Shown: positions 16,582-58,650, numbered from the stretch's first letter. The stretch is DNA of 64,000 nt from Halomarina pelagica (GCF_024228315.1 NZ_CP100454.1:62001-126000), one strand, 5' to 3'. Made by a program: numbers and translations. The notes: generated by a model from the sequence alone, not told the origin.

Positions 16582-16604
16582 CGTATAGAGGAATGACAAT
16601 AGTT

Positions 16605-21633: not shown

Positions 21634-21670
21634 TCGCGTCGACTCCTCGTCAGGGAACAGGGATTCGCCA

Positions 21671-22066: not shown

Positions 22067-22076
22067 ATTATTTTTA
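22067..22076 (+). promoter_or_regulatory. TATA-like box of the decayed NCS2 permease
   Basis: attattttta is centred about 27 bases before the ATG at 22098, a leaderless arrangement that has survived although the gene is broken. Confidence 0.45.
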
Positions 22077-22097
22077 GTAATATTCCTTGTGCGGGCC

Positions 22098-25123: not shown

Positions 25124-25370
25124 GTTCTCCCGATTCGGACACAGTTCGTCGACAGTCTATCGAGTACCACAGGTATGTCACTCGAGCGTCGCTCCGTCGG
25201 TCGGTACGAGAGCGGCCATTGTACACCCGGAATGAAACGTTTCGACCACGTACCGTCGAGTCGACCCACCACGCTGGCAACTCCGTCCACAGGGGAGTGT
25301 GCTCTCCGTCGAACCCTGCAGTCGTGGATAATCGCTGGGACCTCCGACCAGAAACAGTGGTCGCAGTGAA

Positions 25371-25380
25371 AACTTATTTG
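25371..25380 (+). promoter_or_regulatory. TATA-like box for the AzgA-type permease
   Basis: aacttatttg is centred about 29 bases before ATG 25405, consistent with a leaderless transcript. Confidence 0.5.
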
Positions 25381-25404
25381 TGTCTAGTAGGGTAGTGAAC
25401 AACT

Positions 25405-30504: not shown

Positions 30505-30921
30505 GTGAGCCAACTAGAGTTCGACATCGAGGGAGAGGTGTACGTAGCTGACCTACTCAAGGACGAAGCGCCGCGATCAGTCGAGGCACTTCGCGACTTC
30601 CTGCCGCTCGAATCGGAGTTGATGCACGTCCGCTGGAGTGGTCACGCGACGTGGGTCAACATCGACGAGATCGACCTTCCAGAGATTCCACGCGAGAACC
30701 ACACTGTGTATCCCTCGCGCGGCGATATCCTGCTCTATCCGGGGTACCGGAACGAACAGGAGATCCTCGTTCCCTGTGGACCGACGTGCTTCAAGAGTCC
30801 GGCGGGTGAACTCGCCGGCAACCACGTGGCGACGCTGGACGCGTCACGTGAAGAACTCGCCGAACTGGAGGAGGAGACGCTGCAGACCGGTGCGAAACGG
30901 ATCGTCATCAGAGAACGTTAA
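30505..30921 (+). CDS. DUF3830 family protein (cyclophilin-like fold)
   Basis: This 138-residue cytoplasmic protein has the DUF3830 look: N-terminal ADLLKDEAPRSVEALRDFLPLES, HVRWSGHATWVNIDEI, then PRENHTVYPSRGDILLYPG and VPCGPTCFKSPAGELAGNHVATL. The family has a cyclophilin-like barrel but no established reaction. It starts with GTG, supported by the TATA box. It lies between a candidate allantoinase and an M20 amidohydrolase on the same strand, which suggests a part in ureide or cyclic-amide metabolism; this is inference from context. Confidence 0.82.
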   Translation: MSQLEFDIEGEVYVADLLKDEAPRSVEALRDFLPLESELMHVRWSGHATWVNIDEIDLPEIPRENHTVYPSRGDILLYPGYRNEQEILVPCGPTCFKSPAGELAGNHVATLDASREELAELEEETLQTGAKRIVIRER

Positions 30922-41662: not shown

Positions 41663-42034
41663 ATGGGCGAGGAGATTCGATCCAGTAGCGGATTCGTCGC
41701 GCGGCCCCTCGACGACGGAGAGCGGACGACGTTTCCGAACGGCACGGTCGAGGCGGTCATGATCGGCGACCTCACGGTGAGGCGGGCGACGATGCAACCG
41801 GACTGGGAGTGGGAACGGGACGAGAAGCGACTCGTCGGGACGAACAGCTGTCAGAACTCGCACGTGCTATACGTCGTGGCCGGTCGACTCGGACTCAGAC
41901 TCGAGGACGGCACCGAGCACGAACTCAGTCCGGGCGACGTGGCCACCGTTCCTCCCGGTCACGTCGGCTGGACGATCGGAGACGAGGAGCTCGTCTACCT
42001 CGACTTCGACGCCGGCGACGATCCGACGGACTAG
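41663..42034 (+). CDS. Cupin-domain protein
   Basis: The 123-residue single-domain beta-barrel protein shows the cupin motifs CQNSHVLYVVAGRLGLRLEDG and ELSPGDVATVPPGHVGW. The first motif has a single His, so metal binding may be incomplete. Small cupins next to amidohydrolases may bind or process unstable intermediates, but it is too short for the two-cupin ureidoglycine aminohydrolase. Its last 4 bases overlap the convergent MFS gene. Confidence 0.78.
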   Translation: MGEEIRSSSGFVARPLDDGERTTFPNGTVEAVMIGDLTVRRATMQPDWEWERDEKRLVGTNSCQNSHVLYVVAGRLGLRLEDGTEHELSPGDVATVPPGHVGWTIGDEELVYLDFDAGDDPTD

Positions 42035-43233
42035 CCGGCGTCCCTCGGTTCGGGGGCGATCCAGGCGAACGCCAGGCCGACGACTGCGAGCAACGCGGCG
42101 TAGCCGAAGACCGCGTCGAACGCACCGGTATCCTCGATGAGCGTCCCTGCGACGATCGGAGCCGTGAACGAACCGAGGATGCCGACCGTACTGACGAACG
42201 CGACGGTCGTGCCGCCGACGGCGTCTGGGACGAGGTCGCGGGCGTAGCTGAAGAACACGCCGATGCCGAACTGGACGAAGAAGCCGACGAGCACGAGCAA
42301 GATGACGATGAGCACCGCGTCGTTCACGGCGAGGAGTGCGGCGGTGGCCGGCGCGACGACGAGGAACGAGGCGCGAGCGATCGGGCGACGACGGCGTTCC
42401 ATGAGGCGATCGGAGACGAGGCCGCCGCCCGAGCGGGAGAGGACCCCGAGCGCCGGAACCAGTGCGACGAGGAGGCCGCCCTCTTCGAGCGAAAGGTCGG
42501 AGGTCGTCGCCAGGTAGGACGGCATCCACCCGCTGAAGAGCAGGAGGAGCGAGTACGCGACGAACGCCATGGCGGCGACCGACCACACGCGCCGATTCCC
42601 GAGCACGTCCGCGAGTGCCCCGACCGTCGGTCCGGAGCGGGCGTCGTTCGACGGGGGGTCGGCGGTTCCGCCGACGAGCGCGAACGCGACGAACGAGAGC
42701 GTGAGGAGGCATCCCTGAACAGGAAACGTCGCGAGCCAACCGACTCTGGACGCGACGACCGGAGCGAGCGCGAGGCCGAGCGCGAGACCGACCGGGCCGC
42801 TCGTCGTGTAGAACCCGAGCGCGGTCGCCTCGTTCCGCGGGTCCACCGATCGGCCGACGAGATCGATGCTCGCGATCCAGAGGGCCGCGAACGCCATCCC
42901 GCCGAGGAAGCGCGACGCGAGGAAGGACGCGTAATCGCCCTCGCCGCCGGCGAACCAGCCCCAGACGATCGCGACGAGGAGCCCCACCACGGCGGCCGTC
43001 ACGACGCGGCCGGCGTCGAACCGGTCGAGGACGCGCCCCGCCGGTAGTCCAACGACGGCCTCGGCGGCATAGGGAACGCTCACGATCCAGCTCGCGGCGG
43101 CCGCACCGATCGCGAGTTCCGCGGTCAGCACTGGGAGGATGCCCGCCGGTGCGATCAGGTAGGCGGAGCCGCAGACCGCGAGTAGCCACGCCCCGAGCAG
43201 GAGTCCCCGCGGGGATTCTCGTCCCTTCTCCAT
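42031..43233 (-). CDS. MFS transporter
   Basis: This 400-residue protein has 12 predicted membrane segments. Major-facilitator features include the first-loop VGLPAGRVLDRFDAGRV (GxxxDRxGRR-like), the SRFLGGMAFAALWI segment and a second-half repeat SDRLMERRRRPIARAS. It probably exports or imports a small organic acid or ureide; no substrate clue is in the sequence. ATG 43233 is preferred to the in-frame TTG at 43275. It is convergent with the cupin gene and divergent from the racemase gene. Confidence 0.85.
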   Translation of the reverse strand: MEKGRESPRGLLLGAWLLAVCGSAYLIAPAGILPVLTAELAIGAAAASWIVSVPYAAEAVVGLPAGRVLDRFDAGRVVTAAVVGLLVAIVWGWFAGGEGDYASFLASRFLGGMAFAALWIASIDLVGRSVDPRNEATALGFYTTSGPVGLALGLALAPVVASRVGWLATFPVQGCLLTLSFVAFALVGGTADPPSNDARSGPTVGALADVLGNRRVWSVAAMAFVAYSLLLLFSGWMPSYLATTSDLSLEEGGLLVALVPALGVLSRSGGGLVSDRLMERRRRPIARASFLVVAPATAALLAVNDAVLIVILLVLVGFFVQFGIGVFFSYARDLVPDAVGGTTVAFVSTVGILGSFTAPIVAGTLIEDTGAFDAVFGYAALLAVVGLAFAWIAPEPRDAG

Positions 43234-43375
43234 GGGTGACGATCGGTCGATCCGCGTCTGATCGAATTCAACCAAGTACCGGAGAGTCGACCGACGGAGT
43301 ACATATACGTTTCGTACACCTCGACCCCCTCCCCCCGCGTACTATCCCGCGACTGAACGCGAACGGCCGACGCAT

Positions 43376-43413: not shown

Positions 43414-44169
43414 ATGCGAATAAAGGCCATCAATCCGAACACCACCCTCGAGATGACGGAGAACATCGGGAAGGTGGCGGACAGGTACACGAGCGACGAG
43501 GTCGAGGTCGTGGCCGTCTCCCCGGAGCGCGGTCCGATCAGCATCGAGTCCTACTACGACGATTACCTCGCGATCCCCGGGCTGTTGGAGGAGATACGGA
43601 AGGACGAGGGGGACTTCGACGCGTTCATCAACGCCTGCTGGGGCGATCCGGGGATCGACGCCTGCCGCGAGGTGACCGAGAAGCCGGTCGTCGGGATCGC
43701 CGAGGGGTCGATGTACGTCGCCAACATGCTCGGCGCGAGGTTTTCGGTCGCGACTATCCTCCCGCGGGCGAAGGACCTCATCGAGGAGACGGTCCTGACG
43801 ACGGGGCTCGCCTCGAAGTGTGCGTCCGTCAGGTGCACGGACCTGACCGTCGTCGAGACGGAGACGGCCCGCGACGCCGCGGTCGAGGCACTCCTCGAGG
43901 CGAGCACGCTCGCGGTCGAGGAGGACGGGGCGGAGGCGATCTGCCTCGGCTGCGCGGGCATGGGCGGTCTCGACGAGGAACTCGAGAAGGCGCTCCCGGT
44001 GCCGGTCATCGACAGCGTCGGCGCGGCGGCCGTCCTCGCGGAGGGACTGGTCAGGCTCGGCAAGTCGACGAGCAAGGTCATGACGTACAAGCCGCCGGAG
44101 CCGAAGGAGATCAAGGGGTACCCCGACGTCTTCCAGTTCACGGAACACGCCCCGTCCGCCGACGACTGA
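43414..44169 (+). CDS. Asp/Glu-hydantoin racemase family protein
   Basis: The 251-residue protein belongs to the Asp/Glu/hydantoin racemase family. Both catalytic cysteines are in place: Cys 75 in INACWGDPG and Cys 180 in CLGCAGMGG. The N-terminus MRIKAINPNTT is the family hallmark. It would racemise 5-substituted hydantoins or allantoin, which fits the adjacent hydantoinases and HyuAB and the S-allantoin made by uraD. It converges on hyuB. Whether it is a hydantoin or allantoin racemase cannot be told by eye. Confidence 0.9.
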   Translation: MRIKAINPNTTLEMTENIGKVADRYTSDEVEVVAVSPERGPISIESYYDDYLAIPGLLEEIRKDEGDFDAFINACWGDPGIDACREVTEKPVVGIAEGSMYVANMLGARFSVATILPRAKDLIEETVLTTGLASKCASVRCTDLTVVETETARDAAVEALLEASTLAVEEDGAEAICLGCAGMGGLDEELEKALPVPVIDSVGAAAVLAEGLVRLGKSTSKVMTYKPPEPKEIKGYPDVFQFTEHAPSADD

Positions 44170-44311: not shown

Positions 44312-46144
44312 TCAGCCGCGCAACCGGCGGGTCTCCGCCTCGTCGACCTCGATATCGTCGGTGAGCGCGACGCCGTAGGCCTCGCGTGCGCGTTCAACGC
44401 TGACGAAGCCGTCGAGGACGTCGGCGCGAACCTTCTCCGGGTCGCGCTCCGTCGGATCGCCCCACCCGCCGCCGCAGGGGCCCACCAGGCGGAGCCGCTG
44501 GCCGACGTCCATCGCCTGGTTCTCCAGCTTCGAGGTGAGCCGCTGCTCGTCGTCGGTGTCGGGATCGAGGATGATCTGCCCCGTCGTGCCGTCGCGGCCG
44601 CCGTCGAAGCCCCACGGCGGGTACTTGTTGCCGTCGCCCTCGATGGACACGCGCGCCGGGGTGACGAACTCCATCTCGCGGATCGTGCCGATGCCGCCGC
44701 GGTTGCGCCCCGCCCCCTCGCTGTCCTCGCGGAGCTCGTACCTGCTCACCCGGAGCGGGTAGTGGCTCTCGATGTCCTCGATCGGGTTGTTCCGCGTGTT
44801 GGCGTAGAGCGTGTCGACCGCGTCGAGGCCGTCCTTCGCCGGTCGGCCGCCGTAGCTGCCCGAGGAGATGTCCATGTACACCCAGTACTCGTCGTCCTCC
44901 GTGACGCCGCTGAACGTGCTCACCTTGAGGTTCCCGATGCCCGCGCAGGTCTTCTCCGGGACGACCTCCGCCAGCGCCTTCAGCGTGAGGTCCGCGATCC
45001 GGTTGCCCGGGCAGAACCGCGCGATCGTCGGCGCGGGGAACCGCGGGTTGACGATGGTCCCCTTCGGTGCGTGGACGGAGACGGGCCGGGTGATGCCGTT
45101 GTTCTGTGGGACGAGCTCGTGCTCCTCGGTGTCGAGGAGGGTCGACCGGACGACGAGCAACACCGCCGGGATGACGGTCCCCTTGAACGGCATGTTGATC
45201 GGTCGATTGTCGATCTGGTCGTCGCACCGCGAGAGATCGACGCGGATCTCCGAACCGTCGACCTCCAGGTCGACCGCGAGGAACACGTCCTTCTCGTTCG
45301 GATCCGGCGAGTCGAGGAACCCGTCGATGTAACCCTCCGCGGAGTAGGTGCCGTCGGGGAGCCGCTCGATCTCCCGGCGCAGGCGCTCCTCGGAGTAGTT
45401 CATCATCGCCTGGCCCGCGAGCTTGACCGTGTCGTGGCCGTACTCCTCGAACAGCTCGTGCATCCGGTCGACGCCGACGCGGGCGGCGGAGATCTGCGCC
45501 TCGATGTCGCCCATGACCATGTCGGGCACCCGGATGTTGTCGGCGATGAGCTGCCAGGCGGCCTCGTTGCGCACCCCGTCGTCGACGATCTTCAGGGCGT
45601 CGAGCCGGATCGACTCGCTGTAGGCGTCGATGGTGTCGATGATGCACGTCCCGGGCTTGTCCGCGCCGACGTCGAGATGGTGGGCCGTCGTCACCGAGAA
45701 CCCCGTCAGCTCGCCGCCGTGGAAGATCGGGACGACGATCCCGAAGTCCGGGGCGTGACTCGCGCCGTAGTAGGGATCGTTGTGCAGGACGACGTCGCCG
45801 GGCCGGAAGGAATCGCCCCGCTCGTCGAAGACCTCGATCACGCCCTCCACGTAGGCCGGGATGGGACCCATCTGGAGCGGCGTGCTGTCGGTCTCACAGA
45901 GCTGTCGGCCCTGCTCGTCGAGGAGCGCGCAGCCGAAGTCCTCCGACTCCCGGATGATGCTCGAGTAGCTCATCCGGGTCAGCTTGTGACCCATCTCGTC
46001 GCAGATGTTGACGAGGCTGCCCGAGATGACCTGCCGGGTGATCGGATCGACCCGTCGTTCGGGGTCGTCGACCTCGAGTCGCGGCGCGGTCTGCTGTCTA
46101 ATGTCGGTGCCGGCGGGGTTCTGTGTTTCGTGTACTTCTGCCAT
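44312..46144 (-). CDS. hyuB: N-methylhydantoinase B / oxoprolinase-type beta subunit
   Basis: The 610-residue protein is HyuB-like. Landmarks: VDPITRQVISGSLVNICDEMG near residue 34, YSSIIRESEDFGCAL, GDVVLHNDPYYGASHAPDFGIVVPIF, RPINMPFKGTVIP, and GAGRNRGGIGTIREMEF with the C-terminal GPCGGGWGDPTERDPE. With HyuA it forms an ATP-dependent hydantoinase or oxoprolinase-type enzyme that opens hydantoin-like rings. It starts 18 bases after the hyuA stop and is in the same operon. Its start is ATG 46144. Confidence 0.93.
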   Translation of the reverse strand: MAEVHETQNPAGTDIRQQTAPRLEVDDPERRVDPITRQVISGSLVNICDEMGHKLTRMSYSSIIRESEDFGCALLDEQGRQLCETDSTPLQMGPIPAYVEGVIEVFDERGDSFRPGDVVLHNDPYYGASHAPDFGIVVPIFHGGELTGFSVTTAHHLDVGADKPGTCIIDTIDAYSESIRLDALKIVDDGVRNEAAWQLIADNIRVPDMVMGDIEAQISAARVGVDRMHELFEEYGHDTVKLAGQAMMNYSEERLRREIERLPDGTYSAEGYIDGFLDSPDPNEKDVFLAVDLEVDGSEIRVDLSRCDDQIDNRPINMPFKGTVIPAVLLVVRSTLLDTEEHELVPQNNGITRPVSVHAPKGTIVNPRFPAPTIARFCPGNRIADLTLKALAEVVPEKTCAGIGNLKVSTFSGVTEDDEYWVYMDISSGSYGGRPAKDGLDAVDTLYANTRNNPIEDIESHYPLRVSRYELREDSEGAGRNRGGIGTIREMEFVTPARVSIEGDGNKYPPWGFDGGRDGTTGQIILDPDTDDEQRLTSKLENQAMDVGQRLRLVGPCGGGWGDPTERDPEKVRADVLDGFVSVERAREAYGVALTDDIEVDEAETRRLRG

Positions 46145-46162: not shown

Positions 46163-48247
46163 TCACTCCCTCGGGGCCAGTTCGATGTCGCCGTACTCTA
46201 GGACGCGCGCCGAGAAGTCCGGCGGGACGATGGTCGTCGAGTCCTTCTCCCCGATGATGACGGGGCCGTCGATCTCGTGGCCCGCACCGAGCGTCGCCCG
46301 TTCGACGAACGGCGTCTCGAACGAACGCGCCTCGCCGTCGACGCTGAAGTAGACGTCCTCCGTGAACAGCGCGAGGTCGGCCACCTCGCCTTCCGCCTCG
46401 GGGATCGGGACGAGCTTCGAGGAGGGGAGACGACCGTACGCCGTCACCCGCTCGTTGACCAGCTCGACCGGGTTCTCCGGGAAGTTGTGGCCGAACTCGC
46501 TCCGGTGGATCTCGTCGAACGTCTCGCGGACCCGCTCGACGGGCGACACGCGCTCGCCGTCGCCGACGACGACGTTCAGCTCGTAGCCCTGTCCCTGGTA
46601 GCGGCAGTCGGCGGTCAGTTCGAGTTCGATGTCGTCGTCGCTCACGCCGTCGGCGCGGAGGCGGGTTCGAACCCGCTCGACCAGGTCGTCGTAGTCGGTC
46701 TGGAGCGTCTCGCGGTCGAGGTCGGCCAGCATCGAGAACTCGGTGGCGATCTGGTCGTACTGGAGGTCGGTCGTCGAGAGCCCGATCGCCGACAGCACGC
46801 CGGGGCTAGCCGGGATCAGCGTGCGTGGGATGTCGAGTTCGCGCGCGATGTCGGCGGCGTGCATCGGCCCTGCCCCGCCGAACGAGACGAGCGCGAACTT
46901 CTTCGGATCGCGCCCCTTCTGGATCGTCTTCGACCGGATCGCGTTCGCCATGCTGTTGTTGACGATCTGGAGGACGCCGAGCGCGGCCTCCATGGTATCC
47001 ATCCCGAGGGGCTCCGCGAGACGCTCGCGGACGACCTCGCGCGGCTCGTCGGTCGAGAGGTCCATCTCGCCGCCGAGGAAGAACTCCGGGCGGATGCGCC
47101 CGAGGGTGACGTGTGCGTCGGTGACCGTCGGGTCGGTCCCGCCGCGCTTGTAGGCCACGGGGCCGGGGACCGCGCCGGCGGACTTCGGCCCGACGCGGAA
47201 CGCGCCCACCTCATCGAGGTAGGCGATGGAGCCGCCGCCCGCGCCGATCGTCTCGATGTCGATCATCGGGATCATCACGGGGTAGCCGCCGATCTGCGTC
47301 TCGCGGACGTTCGCCTCGACGATCTCGCCGCCGGAGACGATGCCGATGTCGGCGCTCGTCCCGCCCATGTCGAGCGTGATGACGTTCGTCCCGGAGTCGT
47401 CGACGGGGTTGGCGTCGCCGCGCCACTTCCCTCCCAGGATGCCCGCCGCGGGGCCGGACAGTAGGAGCGTCACCGCAGTCTGCTTGACCATGTCCTCGGT
47501 GGCGATGCCGCCGTTCGACTGCATGACGTGAAGGTCGGCGTTCACGCCGAAGGCCTCGAGTTCGCGCTTGAAGCGACTGATATATTCGACCACCTTGGGG
47601 CCGATGAACGCGTTCATCGCGGTGGTGGTGAACCGCTCGAACTCGCGGAACTGTGGGTAGACCTCACTCGACGTCGTCACGTACGCGTCCGGGTGAACCT
47701 CCTCCACGATCTCCTTCGTTCGTCGCTCGTGCTCGTCGTTCAGGTAGGAGAAGAGGAACGAGACGGCGACGGACTCGACGCCCTCCTCCCGTAGCTCGGC
47801 CGCGCGCTCGGCGACCGCGTCCTCGTCGAGCGCGAGCGCGACCTGACCGTCGGCGGTCACCCGTTCGGGGACCCCCTTCCGGTGCCGTCGCCTGACTAAC
47901 GGATTCTTCTGCCACGGGATGTCCTGCTGGATGGAGTAGTTCTGCGGACGCTGGTGGCGTCCGATGTGGACTACGTCGCGGTAGTTCTCGGTCGTGATCA
48001 TCCCCGTCACGACGCCGTCGTGTTCCAGCACGGCGTTGGTCGCGATCGTCGTGCCGTGGAGCACGTAATCGACCTCGACTGGCTCCGTCCCGGTCATCTC
48101 GCAGATCTCGCGTATCCCAGTCAGAGCACCCTCTGAGGGATCCTCAGGGGTCGTGCTCACTTTGTGTATCGTCTGTTCACCCGTTTCGTTGTCTATCAGG
48201 TAGATATCGGTAAAGGTCCCGCCGATATCTACGCCCAGGATTTTCAT
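46163..48247 (-). CDS. hyuA: N-methylhydantoinase A / oxoprolinase-type alpha subunit
   Basis: This 694-residue ATP-binding subunit starts MKILGVDIGGTFTDIYLID, the ASKHA phosphate-binding loop. It has YVLHGTTIATNAVLEHDG, RHQRPQNYSIQ, the second ATP motif NVITLDMGGTSADIGIVSGG, GAGGGSIAYLDEVGAFRVGPKSAGA and SFGGAGPMHAADIARELDI. It couples ATP hydrolysis to ring opening with HyuB. The TATA box at 48274-48283 gives a leaderless start and drives hyuA-hyuB. The 5-oxoprolinase family is related; the hydantoinase and racemase neighbours support a hydantoin or ureide substrate. Confidence 0.94.
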   Translation of the reverse strand: MKILGVDIGGTFTDIYLIDNETGEQTIHKVSTTPEDPSEGALTGIREICEMTGTEPVEVDYVLHGTTIATNAVLEHDGVVTGMITTENYRDVVHIGRHQRPQNYSIQQDIPWQKNPLVRRRHRKGVPERVTADGQVALALDEDAVAERAAELREEGVESVAVSFLFSYLNDEHERRTKEIVEEVHPDAYVTTSSEVYPQFREFERFTTTAMNAFIGPKVVEYISRFKRELEAFGVNADLHVMQSNGGIATEDMVKQTAVTLLLSGPAAGILGGKWRGDANPVDDSGTNVITLDMGGTSADIGIVSGGEIVEANVRETQIGGYPVMIPMIDIETIGAGGGSIAYLDEVGAFRVGPKSAGAVPGPVAYKRGGTDPTVTDAHVTLGRIRPEFFLGGEMDLSTDEPREVVRERLAEPLGMDTMEAALGVLQIVNNSMANAIRSKTIQKGRDPKKFALVSFGGAGPMHAADIARELDIPRTLIPASPGVLSAIGLSTTDLQYDQIATEFSMLADLDRETLQTDYDDLVERVRTRLRADGVSDDDIELELTADCRYQGQGYELNVVVGDGERVSPVERVRETFDEIHRSEFGHNFPENPVELVNERVTAYGRLPSSKLVPIPEAEGEVADLALFTEDVYFSVDGEARSFETPFVERATLGAGHEIDGPVIIGEKDSTTIVPPDFSARVLEYGDIELAPRE

Positions 48248-48273
48248 CGGCGTGTACGACGATAGACGCGACC

Positions 48274-48283
48274 GCTAAAAAAG
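48274..48283 (-). promoter_or_regulatory. TATA-like box for hyuA-hyuB
   Basis: On the minus strand it reads cttttttagc, centred about 31 bases before ATG 48247. Confidence 0.5.
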
Positions 48284-48401
48284 ATTTGCCCCTTGTTTGC
48301 ACGTCACGAGGTATGGTGCTGCCCGGAACGAGCCTCGCCGGATCGGCCGGCGTTCTGTGTGCCGTCACGTCGACGGCCCTTGGCAATCAGGCGCTCGACG
48401 A

Positions 48402-48950
48402 TCAGTCGGCGGCCAGGTCGAAACCGTCGGCGATCGCGTCGATACCGTAGCCGACGTTTCCGCCCATGACGCTCGGGACGACGAAGTCGAGGCCGTAGTC
48501 GAAGAACTCGGCGAGTCGCGCGACGCACTCGTCTGCGGTGCCGGCGGCGGCGAGTTCCCCGACCACCCAGTCCGGAACGTGCTCGGCGGCACTCGCGCTC
48601 CCCTCGGCCTCGGTGGCCTCACGCACGGGTCCCATGACCTCCTCCCGGACGTCGTCGCGGTCGAAGAACGGGTCGCCGACCGCTCGCCTCGCTCGCTCCA
48701 GTCCGGGGAGATTGCAGACGTACTCCGCGACCATCGGTTTCACCGCCGCCTTAGCCCTCTCGCCGTCAGCGTCAATGGAGAACGCGGGTACCATCCCCAC
48801 ATCGGGGCGCTCACGTCCGGCCTCGCGTGCCCCCTCGTCGATGAGGTCGAGGGCGTTCTTCACGTAGCCCTCGCTGACGAAGACGTTCAGCACGACACCG
48901 TCAGCTATCGCTCCTGCGAGTTTTAGCATCTTCGGACCGGTCACGCCCAT
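48402..48950 (-). pseudogene. C-terminal part of an interrupted luciferase-like gene
   Basis: The 183-residue frame begins GVTGPKMLKLAGAIADGVVL, a core segment of F420-dependent (Mer-like) members of the luciferase superfamily, and runs to the natural C-terminus. It cannot be a complete protein: the N-terminal barrel strands are on the far side of an IS605-type element, at 50760-50973. The ATG at 48950 comes from the junction with the element. About 75-110 residues between the two parts are missing. Confidence 0.8.
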
Positions 48951-48954
48951 ATGA

Positions 48955-49030
48955 CATCCTCCCCGGCGTAAACGCCGGGAGACGCACGGCGTCTCCCGAG
49001 CCTCGCTTCACGTCGTTCAGCGAGACGCCG
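48955..49030 (-). ncRNA. Structured right end, candidate omega-RNA region
   Basis: Just past the tnpB stop the DNA can fold into CCCGGCGT-aa-ACGCCGGG (48962-48979), GGGAGACG-cacgg-CGTCTCCC (48977-48997) and a CTCGCT/AGCGAG stem (49002-49007 with 49019-49024). In studied IS605 elements the guide RNA of TnpB comes from this place. Transcription here is inferred, not seen. Confidence 0.4.
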
Positions 49031-49052
49031 GGGTTTCCTCGCGCTGGGGGTA

Positions 49053-50388
<1,336 letters not shown>

Positions 50389-50441
50389 CACCTATTCCTT
50401 GTACCCGAAAGCTAATGTATGTTTGGGTTTTGTGCGTTTGT

Positions 50442-50573
50442 ATGGTGAAGAACATCCACCTCGTCGTGGACGACGACGTGCATGAGCGGCTAAAGCGAAT
50501 CAAGGACGACCACGGTCTGACGTGGGAAGGGATGTTGCTCCACGCGGCGAAGGACTTGGATATCCCGGACTGA
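50442..50573 (+). CDS. Small ribbon-helix-helix-like protein divergent from tnpB
   Basis: This 43-residue protein, MVKNIHLVVDDDVHERLKRI followed by KDDHGLTWEGMLLHAAKDLD, has one short beta strand and two helices, as in RHH-type DNA-binding or antitoxin proteins. It starts 53 bases from the tnpB start on the opposite strand, so a shared promoter region separates them. It may repress tnpB. Function is inferred from position and fold pattern. Confidence 0.6.
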   Translation: MVKNIHLVVDDDVHERLKRIKDDHGLTWEGMLLHAAKDLDIPD

Positions 50574-50620
50574 GCGGTGTCGGCGGTGTTTCGCCGTTGT
50601 CGGATTCACGCCCGTCATCA

Positions 50621-50730
50621 GAATCGCTTCGCGGTTCTTATGGGCTGTCCCAAGAATGACTTCGTCGTTCTTGTGGGCATGGAAGACGTGACGCGTCTTC
50701 CATACTGCACAAGACGTTTTGCGTCTTGTG
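50621..50730. repeat. Array of four hairpins at the element's left end
   Basis: Four inverted repeats follow each other: AGAATCGC-ttc-GCGGTTCT (50621-50639), CAAGAATGAC-ttc-GTCGTTCTTG (50651-50673), GGAAGACG-tgacg-CGTCTTCC (50681-50701) and CACAAGACG-ttttg-CGTCTTGTG (50708-50730). The last two are perfect. The stems share an AAGACG/CGTCTT-like core, so they seem related by duplication. They lie where IS605-family elements carry their TnpA-recognised hairpin. Confidence 0.85.
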
Positions 50731-50759
50731 AACGCCGTGAACGGTGGGACTCTCTCCTT

Positions 50760-50973
50760 GAGTCAGGTAGGGGTTGACCATGGCCGTGCCGAGCCGTATC
50801 CGTTCGGTGCGCGACGCCCACGCGGCGAGCGGCGCGACGCCGTCGCGCATGAGCCGGGATTCGAGCGCCCACGCCGACTCGAATCCGCGGTCTTCCGCGA
50901 GGCGCACGTACGTCCCCTGGCGGGGTTCCACCGGCTGATCGACGAAGGCGATGCCAAATCTCTTGGCAGACAT
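50760..50973 (-). pseudogene. N-terminal part of the interrupted luciferase-like gene
   Basis: From ATG 50973 the frame reads MSAKRFGIAFVDQPVEPRQG, then LAEDRGFESAWALESRLMRD and ASRTERIRLGTAMVNPY, the first two beta-alpha units of a Mer/F420-type luciferase-like protein. After NPY (about 50767) the homology stops and element sequence begins. The remainder is at 48402-48950. Confidence 0.8.
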
Positions 50974-51074
50974 TATCTCGCTTCAGGGACCGGGGTCGCA
51001 TAACTGTTTGCCGTAGAGAGCGTCGATCGACTGGAGCGCTCGACAGCGACGGTCGTGTTCTAACTACGATAGAA

Positions 51075-51084
51075 AACTATTAAT
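51075..51084 (+). promoter_or_regulatory. TATA-like box for the ECF transporter operon
   Basis: aactattaat is centred about 39 bases before ATG 51118, which would leave a leader of roughly 12 bases. Confidence 0.45.
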
Positions 51085-51117
51085 CGTCCTGCACCGAACA
51101 ACCCTCCGGGCATTGTC

Positions 51118-51318
51118 ATGGCAAACCAAGGCATACTTCCCCTCGTGGGGATCGTAGTAGTCGCAGTCCTGTTGTTGGGGCTGGTGTACGCCAACGTCAC
51201 CGGGATGCTGTCGCTGTCCGGGGCGGAGGTAGTGGACAGGAACACGGCGACGATCGTCGTCGCTGCGCTGTTTCTGCTCATGGTACCGTGGGTGTACCGA
51301 CGCATGAAGACGTCGTAG
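51118..51318 (+). CDS. Small two-TM membrane protein of the ECF operon
   Basis: The 66-residue protein has two hydrophobic segments (LPLVGIVVVAVLLLGLVYA at residues 7-25 and ATIVVAALFLLMVPWVYR at 44-61) joined by a polar loop, and ends in a basic MKTS tail. I do not recognise a family. It is the first gene of the ECF-transporter operon, 52 bases before the first ATPase. It may be an accessory subunit, as small membrane proteins accompany some nickel/cobalt ECF systems (CbiN-like), but no homology is claimed. Confidence 0.7.
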   Translation: MANQGILPLVGIVVVAVLLLGLVYANVTGMLSLSGAEVVDRNTATIVVAALFLLMVPWVYRRMKTS

Positions 51319-51370
51319 AGACGATACGACGACCACAGACTCGAACGAAGATGGAGGACCCGATCCAATA

Positions 51371-52225
51371 ATGGCGGCTATCGAACTGAACGACCTATCG
51401 TTCCGGTACCGGAATCAGCGCGGCGAACCGGCGCTTCGCGACGTCTCGCTCACGGTCGAGGAGGGCGAATTCCTCGGCGTCGTCGGCGAGACCGGGGCCG
51501 GAAAGACGACGCTCCTCTCGGCGATGTGCGGGGTCATCCCGTTTCACACGTCGGGCGATCGAACGGGGACGGTGCGGGTGAAGGGCAGGGCAGTCGAGGA
51601 GTACGACTCGTTGAGTGCCCTGTCGTCCGAGATCTCCATGGTGCTCGACAGCCCGGAGAACCAGCTGTTCAACCTGCACGTGTTCGACGAGGTGATCTGG
51701 GGACCGGAGAACATGGGCTTCGACCGCGAGGAGATCATCGAACGCGGCGAACGCGCCCTTCGGTTGTTCGGCCTGGAAGGGTTCGAAGATCGGATCACCT
51801 ACACCCTGTCGGGCGGCGAGAAGCAGAAGGTCGCGATCGCCTCCATCTACGCGCTCAGTCCGGAGATCATCCTCCTCGACGAGCCGACCAGCCAACTGGA
51901 CCCTATCGGCACCGAGATGGTGTTCGAAGCCATCGATCAGTTGATCGCTGAGGGCGTCACCATCGTGATGGCCGAGCATAAGATCGAGGAACTGGCCAAG
52001 TACGCCGACCGGATCGCGGTTCTCCGTAGCGGTGAACTGACCCACGTCGACGAGACGCGGGCGTTCTTCCTCGATGAGACGGACCACGGCGTTGCCCCAC
52101 CGCAGGTCACCGAACTCGGTCTCGAACTGTCCCAGAACGGCGTCGACGGGTTCCGCATCCCGCTTACGCTCGACGAGGCCACCGTCGAATACGCCGGCGT
52201 GCTCCGCCGGGAGGCCACGCGATGA
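51371..52225 (+). CDS. ecfA1: ECF transporter ATPase 1
   Basis: This 284-residue ABC ATPase has Walker A GETGAGKTT (residues 39-47), the ECF-type Q-loop SPENQLFNLHVFDEV, the signature TLSGGEKQKVAIA, Walker B EIILLDEPTSQLDP and the switch His in VMAEHKIEEL. The PENQLF motif marks ECF/CbiO-type ATPases. Its stop overlaps the next ATPase by ATGA, so both are made together and likely form the heterodimeric energy module on EcfT. Confidence 0.93.
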   Translation: MAAIELNDLSFRYRNQRGEPALRDVSLTVEEGEFLGVVGETGAGKTTLLSAMCGVIPFHTSGDRTGTVRVKGRAVEEYDSLSALSSEISMVLDSPENQLFNLHVFDEVIWGPENMGFDREEIIERGERALRLFGLEGFEDRITYTLSGGEKQKVAIASIYALSPEIILLDEPTSQLDPIGTEMVFEAIDQLIAEGVTIVMAEHKIEELAKYADRIAVLRSGELTHVDETRAFFLDETDHGVAPPQVTELGLELSQNGVDGFRIPLTLDEATVEYAGVLRREATR

Positions 52226-53211
52226 TAGTGGACGGCGCGCGGAATCGGGCGCTCCGGTTCGACGAGGTCGAGTTCAGTTACGTACCCGGAACGAGAGTTC
52301 TACACGGGATCGATCTGACCGTCGACGCGGGCGAGTTCGTGACGATTATCGGCCAGAACGGGTCGGGGAAGTCGACGCTCGTCAAGCACATCAACGGGTT
52401 ACTGACGCCGAACGCGGGCACCGTGGAGGTGACAGACCGCGACGGGACGACCTACTCGACCGCCGAACACCCGATGAACGTGCTCGCTCGGATCGTCGGC
52501 TACGTGTTCCAGAACCCGGACGACCAGATCTTCCACACCACGGTCCAGGAAGAGATCGAATACGGACTCAAGAACGTCGGCGTCCCGAAGTCGGAGCGTG
52601 TCGATCGCGTCGCGACGGTGCTCGACCGGGTCGGTCTCCCGGTCGACGGGAGCGAGAACCCCTTCAGCTTCAGCAAGGGTCAGCGCCAGCGGCTCGCGAT
52701 CGCGTCCGTGCTGGCGATGCGTCCGCAGTTGATCTGCGTCGACGAGCCGACGACGGGCCAGGACCGGGCCGAGAGCGTCCGCATCATGGAAATCCTGCGC
52801 GATTACAACGAGCGAGGGCACACCGTCGTCGTCATCACGCACGACATCGCACTCGCGGCGGCTTACACGGATCGTGTGATCGCGATAAAGGACGGTCGCA
52901 TCATCGCCGACGGACCGCCGGAGCGTGTGTTCCTCGACGCGGAGAACTTGGAGCAGACGAACATCCGTCCCCCCCAGATCACGCAGCTCGGACTCGCGCT
53001 CGCCGACGAAGCACCGCCGGGCGTGCTGGACGAGATGTGGCTGACGACCGGCGATGCGTTCGAGGACATCACGTCGTTTCTGGGACAGAGCGACCGGGGT
53101 GACCGGAGCGATCGGACCGACTCGGCCGACGTGACCGATCCGACGGTCCGAAACGGAACAACCGCGACTGATCGACAGCCGACCGAGCGCGCGGAGACGC
53201 GCGACGACTGA
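52222..53211 (+). CDS. ecfA2: ECF transporter ATPase 2
   Basis: The 329-residue ABC ATPase has Walker A IGQNGSGKSTL (about 37-47), the ECF Q-loop QNPDDQIFHTTVQEEI, Walker B QLICVDEPTTGQD and switch His VITHDIALA. The ABC signature reads FSKGQRQR rather than LSGGQ, leaving one of the two composite ATP sites possibly weaker. A 50-residue hydrophilic, Asp/Thr-rich tail follows the domain. It is tightly coupled to ecfA1. Confidence 0.93.
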   Translation: MIVDGARNRALRFDEVEFSYVPGTRVLHGIDLTVDAGEFVTIIGQNGSGKSTLVKHINGLLTPNAGTVEVTDRDGTTYSTAEHPMNVLARIVGYVFQNPDDQIFHTTVQEEIEYGLKNVGVPKSERVDRVATVLDRVGLPVDGSENPFSFSKGQRQRLAIASVLAMRPQLICVDEPTTGQDRAESVRIMEILRDYNERGHTVVVITHDIALAAAYTDRVIAIKDGRIIADGPPERVFLDAENLEQTNIRPPQITQLGLALADEAPPGVLDEMWLTTGDAFEDITSFLGQSDRGDRSDRTDSADVTDPTVRNGTTATDRQPTERAETRDD

Positions 53212-53257
53212 ACCGACGACGAACACAACCGACGAACGTACACCAGACACGGAGACA

Positions 53258-53917
53258 ATGAACGGAACTACCGACGTAGGAACCGAGGTACCGACTTCAG
53301 ATAAGACGATCGCGGAAGGCACCGCACCAGGGCCACTCCCGGACAACCTCTACGGTCAGCTCCCGGACTGGGAGTTCAAGTTATGGCCCAGTTCGACCAC
53401 GGTGATCATGGCGTCGCTGTTCCTGGCGCTCGGGTTCACCGTGAACATGCAGATCACGGAACGCATCGACACGGCGATGTGGGGAGGCATCTCCCCCCTG
53501 TGGGGACTGTTCTTCTTCTCGCTGTGGAACATGCCCGGGGCGATCTTCTTCGGTCTACCGGGGGCGCTCATCGTGGCCAACATCAACCCGATCGTCGCCA
53601 ACCTGACCGCAACGAACCCGCTCGCGCCGACATTCTTCGCGACGAACACGCTGTACGCCGTCCCGATGGCACTGTGGGCGTGGTACTTCAAGCGTCCCGG
53701 GGAGGGACTCACCTTCACCCAGATATCGATCGCACACTTCCTGTCGATCCCACTCGCGGTCGTGCCGCTCGCGTTCATCTGGCTGTTCGTGCTGAACTTC
53801 ACGATCGAGGTGATCGCGTTCTGGTTCGTCGCGTCCGCCGTGTTCGGCTGGGCCGGTATCTTCGTCTCGTACCCATTCGCGAAGAAGCTACTCGAATCCG
53901 GCGTCGTCCAGCGGTAG
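53258..53917 (+). CDS. Putative ECF substrate-binding (S) membrane protein
   Basis: The 219-residue protein has a 50-residue polar N-terminus and then five to six membrane segments starting at VIMASLFLALGFTVNMQI. The conserved-looking core is SLWNMPGAIFFGLPGALIVA, then NINPIVANLTATNPLAPTFF and ATNTLYAVPMALWAWYF. Position between ATPases and EcfT (4-base gap to EcfT) marks it as the S component that sets the substrate. I could not place it in a known S family (a YkoE-like arrangement is possible). The hydantoin/ureide genes on both sides suggest such a substrate. Confidence 0.75.
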   Translation: MNGTTDVGTEVPTSDKTIAEGTAPGPLPDNLYGQLPDWEFKLWPSSTTVIMASLFLALGFTVNMQITERIDTAMWGGISPLWGLFFFSLWNMPGAIFFGLPGALIVANINPIVANLTATNPLAPTFFATNTLYAVPMALWAWYFKRPGEGLTFTQISIAHFLSIPLAVVPLAFIWLFVLNFTIEVIAFWFVASAVFGWAGIFVSYPFAKKLLESGVVQR

Positions 53918-53921
53918 CGCG

Positions 53922-54722
53922 ATGAAGTCACTGTTCCAATTTTCGGGCGGCGATTCGTTCCTCCATCGACTCGATCCACGTCCGAAATTCCTCCTGGTGC
54001 TCGCGGTGCTAGCGTACGTGCTGTTGTTCGAGCGACCGGTCTATATGCTCGCGGCATTCCTGATCGTCATCGGTATTATCTGGGCGTTCGGCCGTATCTC
54101 ACCGCTGGCGTACGGGAAGCTATTGCTCCTGTTCACGCCGCTCATCGCGGCCGTCGCGCTGATCCAGGGGCTGACGCAGCACCCGCCAGACGCGACGACC
54201 GTGATCGGGATCGGCCCGGTCGGCCTCTCCGACGTCGGACTACTCCTCGGCGCGAGCATCGGCATGCGACTCGCCACGATGGGTCTGACGTTCATGATGT
54301 TCTCGATGACGACGACGCCAAAGGACGTCGGCCTCGCGATACACAAGATCGGCGTTCCATTCCGGTACGCATACCTGGCGACGTTCGGTCTGCGGTTCCT
54401 CCCGATGATGCAGGAGGACCTCCAGACGATACAGAACGCCCGGGCCGTCAGAGGGGACGTGGACGTGGGATCGCGAAACCCCTTACGGCGGTTGAAGAGC
54501 CTCCCGATGTCGTTCTTCCCGCTCGCGGCGAACTCGCTCAGGCAGAGCAGCGAGACGGCGAAGGCCCTCGAACTTCGGGGGTACGGTTCCTCCGAGCGAC
54601 GAACGACAGTGTTCGACCTCTCGTTGACCGGCCGGGACTACGCGACAACGGGTGTCGCAGTCATCGTCATCGCGGCGGTCGTGTACGCCCGCGTCGTCCT
54701 CGGCCTGGGCGGACTCGGGTAA
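53922..54722 (+). CDS. ecfT: ECF transporter transmembrane protein EcfT
   Basis: This 266-residue protein has the EcfT plan: N-terminal LHRLDPRPKFLLVLAVLAYV (DPRxK motif), four to five membrane segments, and a cytoplasmic coupling region with the two Ala-Arg motifs, IQNARAVRGDVDVG and AKALELRGYGSSERR. These short motifs dock onto the ATPases. It is the last ECF gene; an M20 amidohydrolase follows 76 bases later, so transporter and enzyme may be one transcript. Confidence 0.93.
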   Translation: MKSLFQFSGGDSFLHRLDPRPKFLLVLAVLAYVLLFERPVYMLAAFLIVIGIIWAFGRISPLAYGKLLLLFTPLIAAVALIQGLTQHPPDATTVIGIGPVGLSDVGLLLGASIGMRLATMGLTFMMFSMTTTPKDVGLAIHKIGVPFRYAYLATFGLRFLPMMQEDLQTIQNARAVRGDVDVGSRNPLRRLKSLPMSFFPLAANSLRQSSETAKALELRGYGSSERRTTVFDLSLTGRDYATTGVAVIVIAAVVYARVVLGLGGLG

Positions 54723-54798
54723 TGGCTCCCCGGATCCGAACGCGGATAACGGAGACGGCAGCATGTAGCGAACGACGAACAGAACGGAAGCAGTAGAC

Positions 54799-56037
54799 AT
54801 GACGAACGAAATCGTGATACGAAAGGACCGGCTCTGGGATTCGATTCAGGCACTCGGTGAGATCGGGGAGGTCGACGGAGCGATGATGCGCGTGACGGGG
54901 AGCGACGCGGACAGGCGCGCGCGAGATCGGGTGGTCGGGTGGTTCGAGGCGGCGGACATGGACGTGGCCGTCGACGCGGTCGGAAACATCGTGGCACGCC
55001 GGGTGGGACGCGTCGACGCCCCGCCGGTCGTCACGGGGTCACACATCGATACGGTACCAGCGGGCGGGAAGTTCGACGGGACGGTCGGCGTACTCGGCCC
55101 ATTGGAGATCGTGCGAGCGTGGAACGCGGCCAATGTCGAGACCGACCGACCGCTCCACGTAGTCGTCTTCACGGAGGAAGAGGGGACGAGATTCGGCACC
55201 GGCCTCCTGGGCAGTCTCGTCGCCACTGAACGGCTCCAGGCCGATAAGGCGCTGGCACTCGAGGACGAGGACGGAGTCACGCTCGCGGAAGCGTTGCGGT
55301 CGATCGGGTACGACGGGACAGCGGAGCTCGGGTTGGCCGATGCCGCCGCCTTCATCGAGATGCACGTCGAACAGGGCCCGATTCTCGATCGCAGCGATAC
55401 TGCCGTGGGAATCGTGGAGACCGTTGCGGGCATCACCCACCACCGGGTGACCTTCGAGGGTGAGGCCGATCACGCCGGCAACACGCCGATGGCGATGCGC
55501 CGGGACGCGTACGTTGGGGCCGCCGAGTTCGCCCTCGAACTGGAACGGACCGCGCGCCGACACGCCGAAACGTCGAACACCGTCGGCACCGTTGGCAAGT
55601 CGAAGGTCACACCGAACGGGACGAACGTGATCCCAGGCCGTGTCGAACTCGGAGTCGACATCCGAGATACGGACGACGAACACCTCCACGAGACGGTTTC
55701 CTCGGCCAGGGAACACGCCCGGGCGATCGCGTCGAAACGGGAGTTGAGCCATCAGTGGCAATCGCTCTTGGAGGTCACCCCTACGGAATTGTCGCCGGAC
55801 ATCAGCAACCGACTCGTCGAAGCAGTGCAGAACTGTGGACACACGTACCGACGGATGCTATCGGGCGCGGGGCACGACGCGATGAACGTCGCCGCCGTCG
55901 CTCCTGCCGGCATGCTGTTCGTTCCGAGTAGAGACGGCATCAGCCACAGCCCCGAGGAGTACACGTCGCCCGAGGACGTCTACATGGGAACTCGGGTCCT
56001 CGAGGCGGCGTTGCGCGAGTTGACGAGGAGCGGGTAA
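54799..56037 (+). CDS. Second M20-family N-carbamoyl-amino-acid/allantoate amidohydrolase
   Basis: The 412-residue Zn hydrolase has TGSHIDTVPAGGKFDGTVGV (His, Asp), FTEEEGTRFGTGLLGS (Glu), EMHVEQGP (His), DHAGNTPM of the lid domain and LSGAGHDAMN (His). It resembles the enzyme at 31016 but is clearly diverged. Following the ECF operon, it could hydrolyse the N-carbamoyl product formed after hydantoin ring opening by the hydantoinase or HyuAB. Allantoate is the alternative substrate. Confidence 0.88.
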   Translation: MTNEIVIRKDRLWDSIQALGEIGEVDGAMMRVTGSDADRRARDRVVGWFEAADMDVAVDAVGNIVARRVGRVDAPPVVTGSHIDTVPAGGKFDGTVGVLGPLEIVRAWNAANVETDRPLHVVVFTEEEGTRFGTGLLGSLVATERLQADKALALEDEDGVTLAEALRSIGYDGTAELGLADAAAFIEMHVEQGPILDRSDTAVGIVETVAGITHHRVTFEGEADHAGNTPMAMRRDAYVGAAEFALELERTARRHAETSNTVGTVGKSKVTPNGTNVIPGRVELGVDIRDTDDEHLHETVSSAREHARAIASKRELSHQWQSLLEVTPTELSPDISNRLVEAVQNCGHTYRRMLSGAGHDAMNVAAVAPAGMLFVPSRDGISHSPEEYTSPEDVYMGTRVLEAALRELTRSG

Positions 56038-56074
56038 CTGTCGGCGGTCGCCCGCGGCGGCGGATCGGTGGACG

Positions 56075-57055
56075 CTACGGAACGAGTACGATTTTCCCGG
56101 CGAAGCTATCCTCGACGACGGCGCGCTGGGCCTCGGCACCGTCGTCGAGATCGTACGTCCGAGCGATGTTGACGGTCAATCGATCGGCGTCGAGGAGGCG
56201 AGCGAGTCGCTCGAGCACCTCATCGATGTTCGGTTCGTTGAACATGTCCATCGGCTGGATAGTGAGATCCTTTCCGATGGCTGCGGTGAGGTCCTGGATA
56301 ACGGGTGAGTCGTAGTTACCGCCGATCGCGACGACCGTTCCCCCGTACGCGGAGACGTCGATGTCGAACTGCATGTACTCGCCGAGCATGTGATCGAGGA
56401 CGACGTCGACGCCGCGCTCGGACGACTCGATCACTGCGTCCTGAAGGCCTCTCTGATCGTACTCTAGTACGACGTCGGCACCTAGACGCTCGACTATCGG
56501 CCTGTAATCGTCTGACGTGGTGGCTATGACGGTCGCACCGATGGTGGCAGCGAGCTGGACGGCGATGTGGCCGACCCCGCCACTTCCCCCGTGGATCAGG
56601 CAGGTCTGCCCAGGTTCGAGTTCACCGAAGTGAAAGAGTGCGCGCCACGCAGTGATGCCGACGAGACCGAGACCTGCTCCGATTTCGAACGATACTCCGT
56701 CAGGGAGTCGGGCCAGGCGGTCCTCGCGAGCGACGACGAACTCGGCGTAGGTCCCCTGACGGTCGCCACGAGCGCCGCTGACGTTCAGGTGTGGGATCGT
56801 CCCGAAGACTCGATCGCCGACATCGAATCGGGTGACGCGCTCACCGACCATTTCGACGACACCTGCCACGTCGGATCCGGGGATGAGCGGGAGTTCATCC
56901 CCCCAGAGCCCCTGCCGCCGCAACGTGTCGCACGGATTGACGCCGATGGCACGAGTCTCGACGAGTACTTCGTCGGCATCCGGCGTGAGCTGCTCTACAT
57001 CTTCGAGTTCGAGGACGCTCGGGTCACCAAACTCGTGGTACCGAATGGCACGCAT
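56075..57055 (-). CDS. Zinc-free MDR oxidoreductase (quinone-reductase-like)
   Basis: The 326-residue protein is a medium-chain dehydrogenase of the NADPH:quinone reductase type. It begins MRAIRYHEFGDPSVLELEDV, has IGVNPCDTLRRQGLWG, IPGSDVAGVVEMVG, and the nucleotide motif CLIHGGSGGVGHIAVQLAATIGA split around residues 143-165. No zinc-ligand cysteines are seen. ATG 57055 begins at the family N-terminus; the frame is open 69 codons further but those look non-coding. It is convergent with the M20 gene and divergent from the IclR gene. Confidence 0.88.
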   Translation of the reverse strand: MRAIRYHEFGDPSVLELEDVEQLTPDADEVLVETRAIGVNPCDTLRRQGLWGDELPLIPGSDVAGVVEMVGERVTRFDVGDRVFGTIPHLNVSGARGDRQGTYAEFVVAREDRLARLPDGVSFEIGAGLGLVGITAWRALFHFGELEPGQTCLIHGGSGGVGHIAVQLAATIGATVIATTSDDYRPIVERLGADVVLEYDQRGLQDAVIESSERGVDVVLDHMLGEYMQFDIDVSAYGGTVVAIGGNYDSPVIQDLTAAIGKDLTIQPMDMFNEPNIDEVLERLARLLDADRLTVNIARTYDLDDGAEAQRAVVEDSFAGKIVLVP

Positions 57056-57260
57056 ATGTGTAGACAGACGGCGAACGGACTTAGCGTTACGTGTCCAGAG
57101 GTCGCGGTGAATACGGACGACCCTCCGTTCGATCAGAGACTCCCGCTCGTCGCCGGAGATATCCGTTCGATAATATCGAACGGTCGTCTCTGCGGGATCG
57201 GGCGTATTCCCTCGAGAGAAGCCGATTCGTAACAGGACGCTGTCGCGATAGGACGGGAAC

Positions 57261-57270
57261 AACTAATACA
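57261..57270 (+). promoter_or_regulatory. TATA-like box for the second IclR gene
   Basis: aactaataca is centred about 28 bases before ATG 57294, which favours that start over the longer frame. Confidence 0.5.
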
Positions 57271-57293
57271 CAGTGGGCACGAGTGGGTTTACC

Positions 57294-58052
57294 ATGGAAA
57301 CGAAGCGCACCATCAAGTCGGTCGAAACGATGTTCGATATACTCGAACTTCTACGAACTCAGAACGGCGCTCGACTGACCGACGTCGCAGACGAGTTAGG
57401 GATGGCGAAAAGTACCGTTCATCAGTACCTTACCACACTCGAGGTACGCGAGTTCGTGGTCAGGGAGGGGGACGAGTACCACGTCGGGTTGCGATTTCTG
57501 GATTACGGGGAGTTCGCGCGAAGTCGCAACCCGGTCTACGACCTGGCGAAAGAATCGGTGAGAGAGCTCGCCGAGCTGACCGAGGAGCGGGCGCAGTTCG
57601 TCATTGAGGAGCACGGGAGGGGCGTGTACGTCTACATGGCGGTCGGCGATCGAGCGGTCAAAACCGACTCTCGTATCGGCAAGCGGGTGTTCCTTCACGC
57701 CACTGCCGCCGGGAAAGCGATCCTCGCTCATCTTCCGGACCGACGGATCCGTGAGGTGTTCGACGCCCCCGGCTTGGAACCCGTAACGGAACACACGGTC
57801 GTCGACCCTGACGAACTCCGCGAGGAACTCGAGGAGATCCGCGACCGCGGTGTCGCCTACAACAATCAAGAGGACACGTTGCGACTGCGCGCGGTCGGTG
57901 TTCCGGTGATGGATGCGGACGGAACCGTTCTCGGGGCACTGAGCGTGTCCGGACCCACACACCGGTTCAAGGGTGAGGTTCTCGAGCGGGAGATCCCCGA
58001 TCTCCTGCTCGGCATAGCCAACGAACTCGAACTCAACATCGAGTACATGTGA
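57294..58052 (+). CDS. IclR-family transcription regulator (second)
   Basis: The 252-residue protein has an N-terminal winged HTH (TMFDILELLRTQNGARLTDVADELGMAKSTVHQYLTTL, split over residues 12-49) and the IclR effector domain with FLHATAAGKAILAHLPDRR, GVAYNNQEDTLRLRAVGVPVMDADG and LGALSVSGPTHRFKG. It is clearly a paralogue of the regulator at 34716. It closes the hydantoin/ECF region and may regulate it and the divergent MDR gene; no site could be assigned with confidence. Confidence 0.9.
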   Translation: METKRTIKSVETMFDILELLRTQNGARLTDVADELGMAKSTVHQYLTTLEVREFVVREGDEYHVGLRFLDYGEFARSRNPVYDLAKESVRELAELTEERAQFVIEEHGRGVYVYMAVGDRAVKTDSRIGKRVFLHATAAGKAILAHLPDRRIREVFDAPGLEPVTEHTVVDPDELREELEEIRDRGVAYNNQEDTLRLRAVGVPVMDADGTVLGALSVSGPTHRFKGEVLEREIPDLLLGIANELELNIEYM

Positions 58053-58650
58053 GGTGAACCCGCACCGTACGTGATAGAGGTTTTCATTATCTTACCACGC
58101 TACGGGAGTCTTCCGATTGATGGGTGCGGCAAATTCGCACGATTCGGCTCGTACTGTACCTGCTCGGTCGTCCTCGGACTGCGTTATCGCCCGATAAATG
58201 TAGTACATTTCAGAACAGATTGCAAAGATTTATTTCGACAATATCGAACTCCTATTTCTATTCCATTCGAATACCCGCCTCGCCTCGCCGACGGCCCGGA
58301 CGATCTCCTCGCGTCTCCGCCGATAAGTTATCCCTCGTAAGACTATCCGTCGTTCCGTCGCCAGACTGACGATCGCGACCATCTCTGTGAAGGCGCTGTA
58401 ATCGGTACTGTAGAGCATTGACGGTCGGATACGGTAAGACAGTCGCCCCCATCTAACGGATGGAATAACATTAGTATAGATGTTACGCAAATTCGTTCCC
58501 GTCTGGTTTCTATGGGGGCAGGTAGAATAGCTTGTCGTAGACAAAAGACGCTGTATCTGTGACGTTACGTGTTTCGGGTGAATCCTGGCCAGAGCGCCGT
58601 CGTGGGGCTGGTGTCGTCCGGCGTCCATCTACTCACACGTGCCGGTTCGG

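Follow-up and report, generated by a model that had tools for sequence, protein, structure and literature searches.

The window analysed here, a stretch of 64,000 nucleotides from a Halomarina species (bases 62001–126000 of contig 1), contains an operon for an energy-coupling factor (ECF) transporter on the plus strand at positions 51118–54722. Its first gene encodes a 66-residue protein with two transmembrane segments (two-TM protein; 51118–51318), a putative accessory subunit. It is followed by genes for two ATPases, EcfA1 (51371–52225) and EcfA2 (52222–53211), for a 219-residue protein that is the candidate substrate-binding (S) component (53258–53917), and for EcfT of the CbiQ family (53922–54722; PF02361, 2e-29). 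Downstream on the same strand is an M20 amidohydrolase of the hydantoinase/carbamoylase family, of the allantoate amidohydrolase or N-carbamoyl amino acid hydrolase type (54799–56037), which passes the TIGR01879 hydantase model with a score of 394.7 against a cut-off of 204. All the operon genes are open at these coordinates. The genes for EcfA1 and EcfA2 overlap by 4 bases, while 4 bp separate the S gene from ecfT and 76 bp separate ecfT from the M20 gene. A TATA-box-like element, GAAAACTATTAATCG (51072–51086, plus strand), lies 31 bp 5′ of the first start codon and may serve as the promoter; the 14 bases GAAAACTATTAATCG can be found at the equivalent place in the same-genus relative H. halobia despite differing flanks.

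A sequence-only reading of the window had described a complete ECF module (ecfA1, ecfA2, a putative S gene and ecfT) with an additional 66-residue two-TM protein, and this description is borne out by open frames, family matches, motifs and substitution rates. Both ATPases match ABC_tran (EcfA1, 1.8e-27; EcfA2, 8.2e-30), and their best matches are ECF_ATPase models, yet they score below the equivalog cut-offs of those models. As expected of the ATPase pair of an ECF transporter, each contains Walker A, signature and Walker B motifs, which read GETGAGKT, LSGGEKQ and IILLDEP in EcfA1 and GQNGSGKS, FSKGQRQ and LICVDEP in EcfA2. The Q-loop of EcfA1 is VLDSPENQ, with D for the usual Q, both here and in H. 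halobia (LQNPESQ in Halarchaeum), and the D residue suggests that this ATP site is possibly degenerate. EcfT matches the solved EcfT 4hzu (3.6e-14), and its X-R-X coupling motifs, V-R-G and L-R-G, are Ala-Arg-Gly-like and align with those of canonical EcfT. The two-TM protein has no match to any Pfam family, nor to CbiN, and its counterparts at the equivalent place in H. halobia and Halarchaeum share 97% and 47% identity with it, respectively.

In comparison with H. halobia, dN/dS is 0.008/0.287 (~0.03) for the S gene and 0.014/0.339 (~0.04) for the two-TM gene, and the gene order of the module is conserved in a second genus, Halarchaeum. Because these ratios are low and the order is kept, the S and two-TM genes are real genes under constraint, with strong purifying selection on the S gene, which is better conserved between the two Halomarina species than any other gene of the module.

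The 219-residue protein is probably the S component of a new family, as judged from its sequence relatives and its place in the operon. The sequence-only reading did not recognise its family, and profile searches likewise returned no credible match to a Pfam or NCBIfam family, nor to PDB sequences. The models for the vitamin S families BioY, YkoE, ThiT and others and for CbiM did not match, so that membership of a thiamin, biotin, cobalt or other known family, which would have spoken against the earlier proposal, was not encountered in the family searches. YkoE (PF09819) was also absent from 59 relatives. A profile of four S sequences found no solved structure. The Halarchaeum orthologue aligns with PF12822 (ECF S component) over residues 43–170 (128 residues; 22.4 bits, E 1.4e-4), which is below the gathering score of 30.7 bits, while the window protein (residues 34–219) has no PF12822 match at E ≤ 10 and the Klebsiella relative described below likewise has none. 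A profile–profile comparison with two PF12822-type proteins and a Rhodococcus ECF neighbour, made with thin profiles, gave nothing. The family shares the motif INPI(V/I)xNLTAxxPxAP as well as conserved QxxER residues, and six helices are predicted with low confidence in the first of two AlphaFold models (pLDDT of 44 and 47, from alignments of three sequences), the models being poor because sequences are few. The genome has two other ECF systems, and judged from sequence their S proteins differ from this one, the first being BioY-like and the second PF12822-like.

Two alternative identities of the 219-residue protein can be weighed against these results. It is highly improbable that it is a membrane protein of another function, such as a receptor-like protein related to the S fold, with the S component of the module encoded elsewhere. 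S-fold relatives with signalling roles do exist (PMC11109136), and the window protein has no significant direct family match and only poor structure models, but its gene lies between the ATPases and EcfT and is the best conserved of the module within Halomarina, it co-occurs with one EcfA/EcfT lineage in archaea and Klebsiella, and its Halarchaeum orthologue matches PF12822. It is also unlikely, if less so, that the ligand of the protein is a vitamin, a cofactor precursor such as thiamin, or a metal that the neighbouring enzymes need. Such ligands are those of most characterised ECF transporters and of the S proteins named in PMC6828968 and PMC11109136, and the top match of a fold search with the poor model was an ECF S component, 5edl, at a non-significant E of 0.83. 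However, the family models named above did not match, no vitamin riboswitch was matched within 48000–58500, and the module accompanies ureide genes rather than vitamin genes. The N-terminal His motif of CbiM/NikM is also missing from the S sequence.

Relatives of the S protein were found in few of the archaeal genomes and plasmids covered. Two of 391 haloarchaeal genomes carry the family, namely that of the window and that of Halarchaeum nitratireducens, and a family-wide profile search added only H. halobia. Among 72,556 plasmids, the S protein was detected in a megaplasmid of H. halobia and in four Klebsiella pneumoniae plasmids (35%, E 4e-23), where it is annotated as a "hypothetical protein". 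The H. halobia protein shares 98% identity with that of the window and the Halarchaeum protein 52–54%. Two conserved peptides scanned across 84,980 species, a method blind to distant members, recovered only H. halobia and Halarchaeum. No relatives of the S protein were found in viral contigs, and the Klebsiella module had no match in E. coli genomes. Two weak archaeal matches proved on reading to be unrelated proteins, and three further short archaeal matches (E 0.002–0.003) were judged to be due to chance.

The Klebsiella EcfT shares 42% identity and the ATPases 47% identity with their archaeal counterparts, while the next haloarchaeal T proteins reach at most 31%. With so much more similarity in the Klebsiella T protein and ATPases than in the T proteins of other haloarchaea, the whole module is, on sequence identity, one lineage across two domains that appears to have been inherited together. 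The two-TM protein is absent from the Klebsiella operon. The Klebsiella cluster, an allantoin/dihydropyrimidine catabolic one that includes the ECF genes (13662–25531 of the NZ_CP009865.1 locus), is at least 99.9% identical in the four plasmids and is flanked on both sides by insertion sequences. An ECF module of Paracoccus yeei (NZ_CP031080.1, locus 371–9987) was considered as a relative and rejected, as it has an ordinary PF12822 S protein and a T protein that is only 31% alike; this module is located downstream of HyuA/HyuB-like acetone-carboxylase-type genes.

The operon of the window is part of a longer block. Upstream, the block comprises, in order, a D-hydantoinase/dihydropyrimidinase-type cyclic amidase (40176–41579, plus strand; TIGR02033, 448 bits against a cut-off of 393), for which the nearest solved D-hydantoinase is 1k1d; a cupin-domain protein (41663–42034, plus strand; 75% in H. 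halobia); an MFS transporter (42031–43275, minus strand; 93% in H. halobia); an Asp/Glu/hydantoin racemase family protein (43414–44169, plus strand; PF01177, 1.1e-52), whose nearest solved relative is the allantoin racemase 5lfd (4e-54); HyuB (hydantoinase B/oxoprolinase; 44312–46144, minus strand; PF02538, 1.4e-154); HyuA (46163–48247, minus strand; PF01968, 1.8e-87), whose nearest solved relative is the N-methylhydantoinase 7hk5 (4.5e-197); and a luciferase-like monooxygenase. After the two-TM, A1, A2, S, T and M20 genes, it ends with a zinc-type alcohol dehydrogenase family protein (56075–57262, minus strand) and an IclR-family regulator (57273–58052, plus strand), the likely regulator of the block; these two have equivalents in the same place in H. 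halobia at 85% and 83%, respectively. The block as a whole is kept in H. halobia at 75–98%. The sequence-only reading had set the module between the HyuAB/racemase genes and the M20 gene. The HyuAB and racemase genes do lie upstream, but a monooxygenase gene and a TnpB element intervene before the ECF genes, and the surroundings are wider, as a near-complete purine-to-allantoin island (15214–37537) adjoins the block. This island contains NCS2 permeases, xanthine dehydrogenase subunits, deaminases, a hydantoinase/allantoinase-like enzyme, a second M20 enzyme, HIU hydrolase and uricase, together with OHCU decarboxylase, XdhC, MobA-like and IclR genes.

All the homologous operons that we found, in H. 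halobia, Halarchaeum and the Klebsiella plasmids, are likewise located among hydantoin or allantoin genes, as the earlier proposal would have it. In Halarchaeum, the two-TM-A1-A2-S-T operon has M20 and DUF3830 genes upstream, where a gene that we take to encode a D-2-hydroxyacid-dehydrogenase-like protein is also found. Downstream of it are genes for an NCS2 permease, adenine deaminase, hydantoinase, OHCU decarboxylase, uricase and HIU hydrolase, and racemase, HyuB and HyuA genes follow ~12 kb further on. The Klebsiella operon has the order M20-S-T-A-A-epimerase-RidA-PuuE, and divergent from it are a dihydropyrimidinase (TIGR02033, 544 against 393), a second M20 enzyme and an NCS1 allantoin-permease-like transporter. 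Its PuuE passes the allantoinase equivalog TIGR03212 (456.8 against 424.6), and its M20 enzyme has a good allantoate deiminase score that falls short of the equivalog cut-off.

The module is therefore found with M20 genes and genes for the opening of ureide rings in three independent lineages, Halomarina, Halarchaeum and Klebsiella. The M20 enzyme next to the ECF genes is a different paralogue or subgroup in each lineage, a pattern better explained by a link in function than by joint inheritance alone. Archaeal genomes have 2–4 M20 genes of the hydantoinase/carbamoylase family, and the chance proximity of such a gene to the module is roughly 0.1–0.4% per archaeal genome. The association is stronger than the earlier reader could know, since it is recurrent across domains beside different M20 paralogues. 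No uricase was found in H. halobia, yet the block from hydantoinase to IclR is retained there, which makes the block separable from purine oxidation; a link of the module to uricase as such was rejected on the same ground.

We consider it probable that the operon encodes an ECF importer of the dedicated, group I-like kind, whose S component represents a new family for allantoin or a hydantoin ring closely related to it. Import of such a ring would best explain why the linkage with ring-opening and M20 enzymes recurs in three settings with different M20 paralogues. Allantoin is favoured because of PuuE and the allantoin-racemase-like gene, while hydantoins or dihydropyrimidines may be the substrates instead, given that the hydantoinases belong to the dihydropyrimidinase type. 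The earlier proposal of an importer for hydantoin, allantoin or pyrimidine-like rings is partly supported: it is upheld in the gene context, with the substrate a prediction from that context, which points more to allantoin than to hydantoins in general. In the mechanism that we infer, which covers the role of the S protein and its substrate, import into the cell and the sequence of breakdown, the S component would capture the substrate outside the cell and release it inside by toppling, with EcfA1 and EcfA2 hydrolysing ATP and EcfT coupling them to the membrane. The neighbouring racemase would then epimerise the ring, hydantoinase/HyuAB would open it, and the M20 amidohydrolase would cleave the resulting open ureide and so release nitrogen. 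The direction and mechanism of import are taken from those established for ECF transporters (PMC11109136, PMC6828968).

There is some chance, though not a large one, that the substrate is instead another nitrogen ring or an open ureide, such as a pyrimidine, dihydropyrimidine, purine base, urate or N-carbamoyl amino acid, which would leave the catabolic logic unchanged. TIGR02033 is passed by the dihydropyrimidinase-type enzymes of both Halomarina and Klebsiella, purine genes and an NCS2 permease adjoin the module in Halarchaeum, and M20 enzymes of this family also use N-carbamoyl amino acids. However, H. halobia retains the module without uricase, NCS2 and NCS1 base permeases are already close by, and the PuuE allantoinase and the allantoin-racemase-like gene indicate allantoin.

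Several observations weigh against allantoin or hydantoin import by a new S family. The S protein matches no known S family, its structure models are poor and its fold match is non-significant. The position of the AxxxA motif in helix 1, through which S components contact EcfT, is occupied by S53xxxA57 in archaea and by CxxxG in Klebsiella, both of the small-xxx-small type. Only three independent contexts are known for the module, from archaeal genomes and plasmids. Uricase is present in 36 of the 391 haloarchaeal genomes, including both that carry the module, and most uricase-bearing haloarchaea are without it, so the module is dispensable for purine catabolism. Known ECF transporters import micronutrients, and a nitrogen source needs higher flux.

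Open-licence papers that we searched gave none tying ECF transporters to allantoin, hydantoin, uric acid or dihydropyrimidinase, and to our knowledge a ureide-importing ECF transporter would be new. We regard the chances as evenly balanced for the fuller proposal, namely that a new S family common to haloarchaea and enterobacterial plasmids serves to import allantoin or another hydantoin ring related to it. This would be the first case of an ECF transporter that supplies nitrogen for catabolism, and its two-TM accessory subunit would be confined to archaea. If true, the use of the ECF mechanism would widen from scarce vitamins and metals to nitrogen catabolism, which raises the question of how an importer of trace nutrients can supply one needed in bulk. 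Neither Pfam nor NCBIfam contains the family, and as the predicted substrates are few and available, the claim is directly testable with one purified protein.

Other features of the window were also observed. The monooxygenase gene between HyuA and the ECF genes (48402–50973, minus strand) is split by a TnpB element into pieces at 48402–48950 and 50638–50973, while H. halobia has an intact copy at ~15580–16608 of its locus. The inserted element is IS605-type and TnpB-only (49057–50391). The archaeal HgcC RNA family gives a match below threshold (48939–49068, minus strand; 25.2 bits, E 0.017), which coincides exactly with the 3′ end of the TnpB element, the expected place of an omega RNA. The listed start of the alcohol dehydrogenase is perhaps too long, as its match spans 339 of 395 residues. 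In the purine island, a DUF3830 protein (30505–30921, plus strand) adjoins the M20 gene at 31016, and its Halarchaeum homologue (72% identical) is found directly 3′ of an M20 gene, upstream of the ECF operon, which suggests a role of this protein in ureide catabolism.

The system can be compared with several that are known. The Haloferax volcanii purine cluster HVO_B0299–HVO_B0302 encodes uricase-pathway enzymes like those of the window, whereas no ECF importer has been described in purine/allantoin clusters such as this (PMC8305020). S components of PF12822 resemble the new family in the sub-cut-off alignment of the Halarchaeum orthologue and in the six helices predicted with low confidence, but differ in that neither the window protein nor that of Klebsiella matches and in that helix 1 carries SxxxA or CxxxG rather than AxxxA. 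With group I ECF transporters (CbiMNQO/NikMNQO, BioMNY), the module shares the grouping of A, A′, T and S genes in an operon of its own and a CbiQ-type EcfT with X-R-X motifs. Unlike them, it has an S protein of no known family and a context of ureide catabolism instead of metals or vitamins. CbiN/NikN systems also have a small two-TM protein in the operon, but that of the window has no detectable homology with CbiN. NCS1 allantoin/hydantoin permeases of the PucI and Mhp1 type share the proposed class of substrate, but they are secondary transporters of another fold and are not driven by ATP.

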